Program-made: the position numbers and the translations under genes
Assembly: GCA_947474565.1 (NCBI GenBank)
Contig: CANJIS010000001.1
Span: 1-64,000, forward strand
Length of the DNA: 64,000 bases
Direction of reading: 5' to 3'
Origin: Alphaproteobacteria bacterium
GTDB taxonomy: Bacteria > Pseudomonadota > Alphaproteobacteria > Micropepsales > Micropepsaceae
The notes under the pieces: model-generated
The model's input: only the letters and a program-made list of their open reading frames with translations
What the model was told of the DNA's origin: nothing
Database searches by the model: none
In this document: one piece after another, positions 19,302 to 23,170 of the stretch
Layout: every line of letters starts with the position of its first letter
How positions within the stretch are numbered: the first letter of the stretch is position 1

Positions 19302-22300
19302 TTAGACAGCCTCGACCGACAAGACGCCCGGAATCGCGGCAATGTTGCTGCGGAGCGCGGGTGTAATCGTGTGGCGTTTGGATAGCGCGATTTCCACTTC
19401 TTCGCCGGGATTGCCGGGCACAATGAAAGTGACCATGCCTTTGCCCGAGCCTTGAAGCTGGGCTGCCACGGCGCCGAGCGGCTGAGGGGATTCCAGCCGC
19501 ACCACCATGCCTTCGCCCGCATCGGCGGCGGCCTTGTCGAGGTCGATGATGGAGGCGGCGCGCAGTTTCAATTCATCGCCATCCCAGTCGGCGCTGGCGG
19601 TGATCAGCAGCGACTTGCCCGCTTCCAGAAGATTGCGGCACGCCGTCAGCACTTCCGGGAACAGCATGACTTCGAACATGCCGGTGGGATCGGAGAAGGA
19701 AACGAAGGCATACATCTGGTCGTTGCGGCCACGCCGTTCCGATTTGCGGATCATGGTGCCGGCGATGCGGGCCTTGAAACCGGCGCGCCGGTCTTCCAGC
19801 AGATGGGCGTAGCTGGAAGCGCCAAGCCGCTTCAGCGCCGGGCCATAAGCATCGAGCGGATGGCCGGAGAGATAAAAACCCATGGCGGAGAATTCTTCGG
19901 CCAGCTTTTCATGCGACGGCCAGTCGGGAATATTTGTCAGGCGCAATTCTTCGACCGCACCGCCACCGAACATGTTGGATTGGCCGCTTTCGCGTTCCCG
20001 CGCCGCCGCCTGGGCACCGCCGAGAATACGGTCGGAGTTTTCCACTACCTGACGTCGGTTCTTGTTGAGACTGTCGAACGCCCCTGCCCGCGCCAGATTT
20101 TCAAAGGCGCGCTTGTTGACCAGACGCGGATCAATGCGGCGGGCGAAATCGCTAAGGCTTTTGAACAGTCCGCCAGCCTTTCGCACCTCAAGAACATGAT
20201 CCATGGCCTGGCGGCCCACGCCCTTCACGGCGGCCAGCGCGTAAAACACTTCACCGGCACCGGCATCGCAGGTGAACACCGAACCAGAGCGGTTGATGTC
20301 GGGCGGCACCAGCTTGACGCCCAGGCGCGAGGATTCCTGACGGAAGATATTCAGCCGATCGGTGTTGCCGATATCGAGCGTCATGGAGGCGGCAAGGAAT
20401 TCGACCGGATAATTCGCCTTGAGGAAAGCGGTCTGATAGGCGACTTGGGCGTAGGCGGCGGCATGGCCCTTGTTGAAGCCGTAACCGGCGAATTTTTCCG
20501 CCTGTTCGAAAATCTGTTCGGCGACGTTCTTGGCAATGCCGCGCTCGCCTGCGCCCTTCATGAATTTTTCGCGGTGGGGAATCATTTCCGACACGATTTT
20601 CTTGCCCATGGCGCGGCGCAAAAGATCGGCCTCGCCCATGGTGTAACCGGCCAGCTCGCGGGCGATGCGCATGACATCGTCCTGATACGTCATCACGCCA
20701 TAGGTTTCTTTCAGGATCGGTTCCAGCAGCGGATGCAGATACTCCGTCGCTTCCTTGCCGTTCTTGCAGGCGATGTATTTGGGAATGGAATCCATCGGGC
20801 CCGGGCGATACAGCGCCACAAGCGCCACCAGGTCGTTGATGTGGTCGGGCTTCATCTTGCGCAGCAGGTCGCGCATGCCGGAGCCTTCCAGCTGGAACAC
20901 GCCGACAGAGTCGCCCCGCGCCAGCATTTCAAACGCGGCGGGATCGTTGAAATCAATCGTCTGGGTGTTGATCTCGACGCCCCGCGCCTTGAGCAATTCT
21001 TCCGCCTTGGCGATGACGGTGAGCGTTTTCAGACCCAAAAAGTCGAACTTCACCAGCCCGGCTTTTTCCGCGTCTTCATAGTCGAACTGCGTTACCGGCA
21101 TGTCGGAACGCGGATCGTGATAGAGCGGCAGAATCTGGTCCAGCGGCCTGTCGCCGATCACCAAGCCCGCCGGATGGGTGGAGGCGTGGCGATACAGCCC
21201 TTCGATCTTGCCGGTGATTTCAAACAGCCGCTTGGCCATCGGTTCCTGCTCGGCGATCTGCTGCAGGCGCGGTTCGCTTGCGATGGCGTCTTCCAGCGAC
21301 ATCGGCTTGCCCGGCGGATTGGGGATCAGCTTGGCGATGCGGTCCACCAGCCCCAGCGGCATTTGCAGCACGCGGCCGGCATCGCGCACCGCGGCGCGGG
21401 CCTGCAGCGAACCCAGCGCGATAATGCTGGCGACGCGGTCCGCGCCATATTTGTCGCGGACATAGCGGATCACTTCGTCCCGCCGCTCCTGACAGAAATC
21501 GATGTCGAAGTCCGGCATCGAAATACGTTCGGGATTGAGGAAGCGTTCAAAGAACAATTCAAAGCGCAGCGGATCGAGGTTGGTGATATCGAGCGCCCAG
21601 GCGACCAGCGATGACGCGCCCGAACCACGAACGCCGACAGGAATGCCCTGCCCCTTGGTCCATTTCATAAAGTCGGAGACGATCAAAAAGTAGCCCGGAA
21701 AGCCCATCCGGTTGATGATCGAGAGTTCATAGGCCAGGCGTTCGTCATAGACGTTGCGCTCGGCGAACAGCTTGGCGGTGGTGAGGCGGCGTTTGAGGCC
21801 ATCCTCCGCCTGCACTTTCAATTCTTCTTCGGGGGCGCGGCCGGATTCCGGCACGAACACCGGCAGGATGGGTTTGCGCTTTTTGGGGCGGAAGGCGCAG
21901 CGGCGGGCAATCTCCACCGTGTTCTCAATCGCTTCCGGCAGGTCGGCGAACAGCATCGCCATTTCGCCGGCGGTCTTGAAGCGATGCTCACGGGTCACGC
22001 GGCGGCGGTCATCCTGGGAGACGAAGGCGCCATCGGCAATGCAGAGCAGCGCGTCATGGGCTTCGTACATGTCGGAGCGGCCGAAATGCACATCGTTGGT
22101 GGCGACGATGGGAATGTCTTTGGCATAAGCCATATCGAGCAGCCCCGGCTCGACCGCGCGCTCTTCGGGCATATTGTGGCGCTGGAGTTCGACATAAAGC
22201 CGGTTGCCGAACATGGCGTGCAGCCTGTCGAGCTGGGAAGCGGCCAGATCCTTCTGGCCATCCAGCAGCGCGGCATTGATCGGCCCGCCCACCCCGCCGG

Positions 22301-22829
22301 TCAGGCAGATCAGATCCTGCGCATGCTTGGCGAGATTGTCGGCCTTGATGTGCGGCCAGTCCCCGGCTTCGACTTTCAGATAGGCGTCGCTGAGAAGCTT
22401 GGTGAGGTTTTGATAGCCCGCTTCGTTCTGCACCAGCAGCGCCAGATGCGGCGGCTTCTTCTTGGAGGCCGACATGCCGGAAGTGGGTGCATTGGCGGAT
22501 GTGCCCATATCCACCGAGATCAGAACCCCGACAATCGGCTGCACCGGGTTCAGGGCAATCTTGCCGCCGCTGCGGGTTTCTTTTTCTTTCTGGGTGAGCT
22601 TGTCGGAAAGCTCATAGATGCCGAACATGTTGTTGGTGTCGGTGACCGCCACCGCCGGCATGTTGTTGTCGCGGGCCAGTTCGGCCAGCTCATCCGGACG
22701 GATCGCGCCTTCCAGCAGCGAATAGGCGCTTTTCACCCGCAGATGGATGAACCCCTTCTGATTGGAAGAGAGGGAATTTTTGCCGGAAGGCATTTTGCGA
22801 GTCTCGGCCATGGCGGGACTATCGGCCAA
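19302..22829 (-). CDS. dnaE: DNA polymerase III alpha subunit DnaE
   Basis: The replicative polymerase, 1175 residues. It contains an N-terminal PHP domain (from about residue 25, FIHLRVKSAYSLLEGAI), the C-family polymerase core with PDFDIDFCQERRDEVI carrying catalytic aspartates, the YQDDVMRIARELAGYTMGEA fingers region, a helix-hairpin-helix, and an OB-fold nucleic-acid domain near 1000-1080. Length and complete PHP domain fit DnaE1 rather than the DnaE2 mutagenesis polymerase. Start may be 22829 or the ATG at 22811; neither has a strong ribosome site. A 33-residue SOS-type peptide gene lies about 40 bases upstream on the same strand, so LexA-controlled readthrough into dnaE is possible. Confidence 0.95.
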   Translation of the reverse strand: MADSPAMAETRKMPSGKNSLSSNQKGFIHLRVKSAYSLLEGAIRPDELAELARDNNMPAVAVTDTNNMFGIYELSDKLTQKEKETRSGGKIALNPVQPIVGVLISVDMGTSANAPTSGMSASKKKPPHLALLVQNEAGYQNLTKLLSDAYLKVEAGDWPHIKADNLAKHAQDLICLTGGVGGPINAALLDGQKDLAASQLDRLHAMFGNRLYVELQRHNMPEERAVEPGLLDMAYAKDIPIVATNDVHFGRSDMYEAHDALLCIADGAFVSQDDRRRVTREHRFKTAGEMAMLFADLPEAIENTVEIARRCAFRPKKRKPILPVFVPESGRAPEEELKVQAEDGLKRRLTTAKLFAERNVYDERLAYELSIINRMGFPGYFLIVSDFMKWTKGQGIPVGVRGSGASSLVAWALDITNLDPLRFELFFERFLNPERISMPDFDIDFCQERRDEVIRYVRDKYGADRVASIIALGSLQARAAVRDAGRVLQMPLGLVDRIAKLIPNPPGKPMSLEDAIASEPRLQQIAEQEPMAKRLFEITGKIEGLYRHASTHPAGLVIGDRPLDQILPLYHDPRSDMPVTQFDYEDAEKAGLVKFDFLGLKTLTVIAKAEELLKARGVEINTQTIDFNDPAAFEMLARGDSVGVFQLEGSGMRDLLRKMKPDHINDLVALVALYRPGPMDSIPKYIACKNGKEATEYLHPLLEPILKETYGVMTYQDDVMRIARELAGYTMGEADLLRRAMGKKIVSEMIPHREKFMKGAGERGIAKNVAEQIFEQAEKFAGYGFNKGHAAAYAQVAYQTAFLKANYPVEFLAASMTLDIGNTDRLNIFRQESSRLGVKLVPPDINRSGSVFTCDAGAGEVFYALAAVKGVGRQAMDHVLEVRKAGGLFKSLSDFARRIDPRLVNKRAFENLARAGAFDSLNKNRRQVVENSDRILGGAQAAARERESGQSNMFGGGAVEELRLTNIPDWPSHEKLAEEFSAMGFYLSGHPLDAYGPALKRLGASSYAHLLEDRRAGFKARIAGTMIRKSERRGRNDQMYAFVSFSDPTGMFEVMLFPEVLTACRNLLEAGKSLLITASADWDGDELKLRAASIIDLDKAAADAGEGMVVRLESPQPLGAVAAQLQGSGKGMVTFIVPGNPGEEVEIALSKRHTITPALRSNIAAIPGVLSVEAV

Positions 22830-22870
22830 AGCCCGCGTCTGCGGGTCTTCGGCGTCCGCCTATCCACAAG

Positions 22871-22972
22871 TCAGATCGCCGAGAGCACCGAATGCGCCGC
22901 GCCCGCCAGGACAAAGGACGACACCATGAAAATGATGAGGCCGGCACCCGCCATTGCATCCTTGATCCACAT
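22871..22972 (-). CDS. Small single-span membrane peptide, candidate SOS-induced division inhibitor (SidA-like)
   Basis: A 33-residue open frame starting MWIKDAMAGAGLIIFMV and ending SVLSAI. Residues about 8-28 form one hydrophobic segment after a short charged N-terminus (Lys4, Asp5). The start has GGGAG nine bases upstream. A consensus alphaproteobacterial LexA box lies about 30 bases upstream and covers the -10 of a candidate promoter. In Caulobacter, SidA is a 29-residue, LexA-repressed inner-membrane peptide that blocks division through FtsW/FtsN; from memory its gene also lies beside dnaE. Size, topology, regulation and place all agree, so I infer the same role. No sequence alignment with SidA was possible here. 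The gene is in the same direction as dnaE, with only a weak CCCGC/GCGGG hairpin between. Confidence 0.75.
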   Translation of the reverse strand: MWIKDAMAGAGLIIFMVSSFVLAGAAHSVLSAI

Positions 22973-23001
22973 AACCGCGATCTCCCTGTTCGTCGGGATT
23001 T

Positions 23002-23030
23002 GTTCTATTTCCGTTCTACACGGGATGCAA
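23002..23030 (-). promoter_or_regulatory. LexA (SOS) box overlapping a promoter
   Basis: GTTC-TATTTCC-GTTC at 23002-23016 is an exact match to the alphaproteobacterial LexA site GTTC-N7-GTTC. Read on the minus strand, TTGCAT (23030-23025), a 17-base spacer and TAGAAC (23007-23002) form a promoter whose -10 lies inside the LexA box, as expected for repression. The first start codon downstream is that of the 33-residue peptide at 22972. No plus-strand gene follows the box. Confidence 0.8.
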
Positions 23031-23170
23031 GAACAAAAGGTGATCTAACTCACCGGAACCGGGCTTTGCGCGCCCCGAAACGCGGGCTGTGGATAACTCA
23101 TACCAAGACAAGGGCTTAGCGGGGATTTGGTTGCCGGGAAAAGCGTTAACGCCCCCCAGCCGAACTGAGA

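Follow-up and report, generated by a model that had tools for sequence, protein, structure and literature searches.

The locus upstream of dnaE

In the window, i.e., the whole stretch of 64,000 nucleotides that was analysed, the gene for DNA polymerase III alpha, dnaE, occupies positions 19302..22811 of the minus strand, when the ATG at 22811 is taken as its likely start. A short open reading frame (22871..22972) lies upstream on the same strand; it begins with the ATG at 22972, ends at 22871 and encodes a peptide of 33 residues (MWIKDAMAGAGLIIFMVSSFVLAGAAHSVLSAI), and 59 nt separate its stop codon from the dnaE ATG. The ribosome-binding site proposed in a previous sequence-only reading, GGGAG (22982..22986, minus strand), was confirmed nine nt 5' of the start codon. 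A structure calculated with AlphaFold2 without a membrane consisted of one high-confidence helix (residues 2–32, mean pLDDT 96.8), and the peptide is a predicted single-span membrane helix with a presumed topology. From its frame, its conservation, profile comparisons and the AlphaFold2 model, the ORF is treated here as a probable divergent member of the SidA type.

A perfect LexA box of the form GAACN7GAAC (GAACGGAAATAGAAC; 23002..23016, minus strand) starts 44 nt 5' of the ATG of the peptide; read on the plus strand it is GTTCTATTTCCGTTC, the sole perfect GTTCN7GTTC in the 64-kb window. The direct repeat GTTCN7GTTC has been published as the SOS box of Caulobacter (PMC9578287). The box extends over a putative -10 element, TAGAAC (23002..23007), which is preceded by a putative -35 element, TTGCAT (23025..23030), both on the minus strand and assigned from the sequence only. 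The promoter described earlier, TTGCAT-N17-TAGAAC with the box on its -10, is present as written, but a sigma-70 scan did not call it (0 found), and the two hexamers are a weak match.

Taken by itself, the confirmed box is not significant, since 1 perfect box was found in the window versus 1.63 (sd 1.19) expected by chance, and the own genome contains 38 perfect boxes versus 43 for the reversed control pattern. As sole proof the box was therefore rejected; significance is supplied instead by its conservation (see below). Inspection of 30 of the 38 loci of the own genome revealed perfect boxes between divergent ssb and uvrA genes (G000 C3:82660), before a UvrD/PcrA-type helicase (G000 C10:40962) and before a PA0069-type radical-SAM protein (G000 C6:74007), while many of the remaining ones are situated inside ORFs and look like chance occurrences.

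Two other short motifs were observed around the ORF. TGTGGA[TC], which resembles a DnaA box, is present at 22862-22868, after the stop codon of the peptide, and occurs within 60 nt of this stop codon in 43 of the 47 genus loci with adjacent dnaE. Upstream of the LexA box, a perfect TTATCCACA is found at 23088-23096.

Searches with PF01726 and TIGR00498 did not detect the repressor gene lexA in the own assembly; it was detected in 56 of 60 genus genomes. Four relatives (G015, G016, G027, G035; loci L259–L262) align collinearly with the window from base 220–251 on, in gltX, which was recognised by eye (the L262 alignment is a short overlap). In the same four genomes lexA ends 2.1–3.8 kb before the gltX-like gene and is located about 26–27 kb from the peptide-dnaE pair. 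The place expected for lexA thus falls off the start of the window, which is the start of contig C1. An assembly gap at this contig end is the simplest reading; lexA is probably absent from the assembly because contig C1 breaks beside its place, with loss of the gene as the alternative.

Conservation within the genus

A DNA search that covered 61 genomes gave matches in 15, among them the own genome, and a profile built from these 15 peptides was run against 60 genus genomes, of which 54 were matched at E ≤ 1.5e-4. All 54 frames are open from ATG to stop, with lengths of 30–36 residues, and the 33-residue frame postulated from the single sequence is thereby confirmed. In all 54 genomes the frame precedes dnaE, with which it shares the strand, and an RBS-like tetramer is present within 20 nt 5' of the ATG; a perfect GAACN7GAAC occurs 36–70 nt 5' of the ATG in 53 of them. 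Six genus genomes gave no convincing match. Five show no dnaE start; in the sixth (G074), where the dnaE start is present, a divergent peptide and a perfect box were found by inspection. The peptide is therefore present in 55 of the 55 genus genomes with a dnaE start found (60 searched) and the perfect box in 54 of 55, the exception being G082 (L043) with no box in the 110 nt inspected.

Among 52 close, non-independent pairs the median dN/dS was 0.21, and differences by codon position amounted to 314/137/593; the peptide is under purifying selection. A chance ORF is ruled out by the genus-wide conservation together with the dN/dS of about 0.21. The best-conserved residues in the genus are W2, D5, A8, G9, L12, F15, F20, L22 and A26, and a test for a conserved helical face was suggestive (conservation moment, p 0.015 by permutation, uncorrected). 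Searches of Pfam and NCBIfam with the 15 genus peptides gave no credible match. In G034 (L263) and G078 (L264) a second ORF of the WLKD type was noticed at a distance of about 1.3 kb from the first, without a perfect LexA box in front of it. In the one other genus sampled in the family (G377), the profile found no match and the dnaE region has no box.

The distance to dnaE bears on the question of whether the frame could be a leader peptide or upstream ORF which tunes dnaE by its translation, so that the LexA box would really be that of dnaE. In 47 of the 54 loci the peptide is adjacent, 9–134 nt before the first aligned codon of dnaE and on the same strand, and co-transcription is plausible. 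However, 528–1057 nt lie between peptide and dnaE in the other 7 loci, and these long gaps argue against a leader, for which adjacency would be obligate. Five of the seven were inspected (L040, L050, L053, L060, L062) and contain one ORF each; the two ORFs tested, those of L050 and L053, encode DUF3788 proteins and likewise speak against a dnaE leader, as does the selection at the level of amino acids. Together with the known inhibitor encoded at this place in Caulobacter and a family member without a dnaE match in its locus (both below), these findings leave a leader function with a very small probability.

SidA in Caulobacter

Four Caulobacter genomes, identified at genus level with RsaA as bait, all contain a 29-residue ORF in near-identical forms directly upstream of dnaE; an in-frame upstream ATG would lengthen it to 40 residues. 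In all four, a perfect GAACATCTTGTGAAC precedes it, accompanied by two or more boxes with one mismatch. The three distinct sequences of this ORF align with NF033228, the model for the cell division inhibitor SidA, along the full length of 29 positions with 73–74 bits (cut-off 35) and E about 1e-20. SidA has been described as a LexA-regulated inner-membrane protein of 29 amino acids which acts on FtsW (PMC4211646). The sequence-only reading had placed SidA next to dnaE, and the match to NF033228 shows that this was right. SidA and the peptide of the window have in common their size class (29 versus 33 amino acids), one membrane helix, the LexA box, the position directly upstream of dnaE and a basic-acidic pair before the helix, which is R-E in SidA and K-D in the window peptide. 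They differ in the W-x-K-D start and the A-G at positions 8-9, a form conserved in the genus of the window, and in their primary sequences, as shown below.

Distribution in the Alphaproteobacteria

The regions upstream of dnaE were examined in 110 of 359 dnaE-positive genomes of the class, a non-random sample which comprised the 30 genomes with the best scores and 80 hand-chosen, with some passed over, from further listed places. Four genus members and three unusable regions (L159 and L168, truncated; L164, away from the dnaE start) were set aside, leaving 103. A perfect forward box was present in the 650 nt before dnaE in 18 of the 103 genomes, and in 17 of the 18 it was followed within 95 nt by a membrane ORF of 25–50 amino acids; the 18th (L144) has a related ORF of 46 amino acids with a hydrophobicity of 1.34, below the cut of 1.7. 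By comparison, 60 rounds of shuffling yielded 0.83 boxes on average, 4 at most, and never a box-ORF pair, and the reversed motif occurred in 1 of 103 regions. The contrast is slightly weakened by boxes on the reverse strand in 7 survey regions and by membrane ORFs of some kind in 11 of the 85 box-less regions (shuffles, 4.2 of 103). In both members of group f148 (L097, L105) a box in reverse orientation, GTTCN7GTTC, precedes the coding match to dnaE by about 95 nt.

The 18 genomes represent ten family-level groups (f4, f9, f41, f82, f91, f116, f121, f123, f126 and f171). The clearest bridge to the genus is f121 (MSEWVKDTAALFVLGAVMWSGFALTAAAQAAG), one member of which was a weak match of the genus profile in the class (E 0.004) and is located at dnaE. 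Run against 385 class genomes, this profile detected four genus members and gave five weak matches; among the latter only that of G368 was shown to be at dnaE, three are elsewhere, and the dnaE place of G099 is unlisted. With an E-value below 1e-3, a combined profile recognised 31 of the 385 genomes, ten of them outside the genus and absent from the profile, a count from which G044 and G180 were omitted, being near-identical or identical to profile rows. Loci were available for nine of the ten, with a perfect box in eight and a position upstream of dnaE in seven; the short locus of G260 contains the box and lacks dnaE, and that of G288, the family member referred to above, has a one-mismatch box only and no dnaE match. 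The combined profile added one new group, f70. In most groups, f41 and f116 excepted, a polar and an acidic residue (K-D, Q-D, R-E, etc.; by eye) stand as a pair just before the helix.

Besides Caulobacter, box and peptide are thus found in the family of the window and in 11 further groups at family level. The earlier suggestion of a SidA-type checkpoint in one further alphaproteobacterial group holds at the level of profiles for the SidA type (see below) and was an understatement with respect to its spread.

Relationship to SidA

When the window peptide was compared with NF033228, no match was obtained at a threshold of E 10 (filters drop most matches above 0.1), and therefore the peptide is not filed as an NCBI equivalog. 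Among 29 family members tested, NF033228 matched three, solely those of Caulobacter, and Pfam gave no credible match for the 29-member combined family. The alignment with Caulobacter SidA that had been recommended did not detect direct similarity: hhalign of the genus profile against SidA was null (probability 0.3), and the direct score was 2.4 bits, rank 17 of 141.

These results would be compatible with an independent SOS peptide which converged on the size, topology and address of SidA, and so would the marginal standing of the window peptide alone against the intermediate families (5.0 bits with the profile from other families; 4 of 123 control ORFs scored the same or higher). Several comparisons speak against convergence. 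The f121 peptides match the genus with 18.5–20.5 bits, and in hhalign the intermediates, when pooled, are linked to the genus profile with P 9.6e-8 and to SidA, in effect one sequence, with P 5.1e-6, values which are optimistic because membrane helices are alike in composition. The LexA box and the place before dnaE are also common to both peptides. Convergence therefore appears quite improbable.

Profiles were furthermore constructed by leaving out one family at a time and were compared with 123 membrane-ORF controls, from which four ORFs had been taken out (the genus member L078, the WLKD paralogue-like ORFs of L049 and L056, and an unrelated ORF in L056). In 10 of 12 families the best member scored above all 123 controls; f126 and f82 failed. 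Caulobacter SidA reached 11.2–12.0 bits versus 5.1 for the best control. For the genus of the window the best member reached 17.9 bits versus 8.8 for the best control, a value exceeded by 21 of 55 genus members. Homology to SidA through intermediates is thus supported at the profile level; the link is carried by the genus profile, with the window peptide alone remaining marginal.

Proposed mechanism and comparison with known inhibitors

The best reading, as had been proposed, is one of SidA-type identity, in view of the dnaE address, the size class, the helix, the LexA box and the profile links via intermediates. The peptide is probably a divergent SidA orthologue and as such would block division at FtsW after DNA damage. 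From the literature on SidA (PMC4211646) we infer the division block and the binding to FtsW; LexA binding, damage induction, topology and division arrest would be expected for this peptide in the same manner. In an undamaged cell LexA would occupy GAACN7GAAC across the core promoter and keep it off. Following damage, cleavage of LexA triggered by RecA would free the promoter and lead to a burst of the 33-residue peptide, which would insert as one helix with its short W-x-K-D start in the cytoplasm. The helix could then dock on FtsW within the membrane, as SidA does in Caulobacter, and hold the septal synthase FtsW/I/N inactive, so that constriction would be delayed until LexA returns. The own genome encodes two SEDS proteins (FtsW/RodA type).

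A detailed contact has been described for YneA of Bacillus subtilis, another SOS-induced small membrane inhibitor, whose transmembrane helix binds TM7 of FtsW; changes of the critical residues K5, E6, F10, V11 or F14 almost abolish its toxicity, and AlphaFold 3 models of low confidence place SidA on TM7 of FtsW, too (PMC13396833). From the YneA contact and the SidA models we infer a similar docking of the helix on FtsW for the window peptide. YneA differs in that a LysM domain is needed for inhibition, and B. subtilis possesses a different SOS box (PMC9578287); homology is not claimed. A periplasmic LysM domain is absent from the window peptide, of whose 33 residues 2-32 were modelled as one helix. 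DidA of Caulobacter resembles the peptide as a small single-TM, damage-induced inhibitor which acts on the FtsW/I/N complex, and is unlike it in having 71 amino acids, being SOS-independent and interacting with FtsN (PMC4211646).

Very small membrane peptides under LexA control are also known from TisB and DinQ, and a peptide of this kind would depolarise the membrane and slow metabolism after damage, leaving the divisome untouched. The likeness includes the size class, one helix and the LexA box. TisB consists of 29 amino acids; TisB and DinQ are of the toxin type, RNA-controlled and situated in other genomic contexts. DinQ has been described as a single-TM SOS peptide (PMC3567139). Against such a function are the position and the profiles, which link the peptide to SidA, the fact that it precedes dnaE in every one of the 54 genus loci and a helix devoid of K, R, D or E after D5. 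A toxin of the TisB/DinQ kind is thus regarded as unlikely.

Implications

The peptide is probably a divergent addition to the known SidA kind, and the wider result is the spread of box and peptide over alphaproteobacterial families. In the literature consulted, SidA is described as a Caulobacter protein. In titles and opening parts of abstracts concerning SidA, SOS inhibitors and dnaE/LexA, neither SidA relatives nor a peptide upstream of dnaE were reported for other alphaproteobacteria, and a prior mention in the full texts is possible.

It is conceivable, if somewhat short of an even chance, that LexA-sidA-dnaE represents an ancient alphaproteobacterial checkpoint with a fast-drifting helix, for which the main marks of recognition are the address, the LexA box and, in most groups (f41 and f116 excepted), the polar-acidic pair. 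In a dozen or more groups at family level, division arrest would then be tied to the gene of the replicative polymerase; the pair is reminiscent of K5-E6, which is essential in YneA, and could point to one recurrent docking on TM7 of FtsW.

SidA would become a widely distributed checkpoint of the Alphaproteobacteria. The profile and the dnaE address expose likely relatives in many families of the class, and thus its damage checkpoint should become testable in other organisms. The variation of the helix, when compared with the FtsW of each species, would offer a way to map the contact between inhibitor and FtsW.
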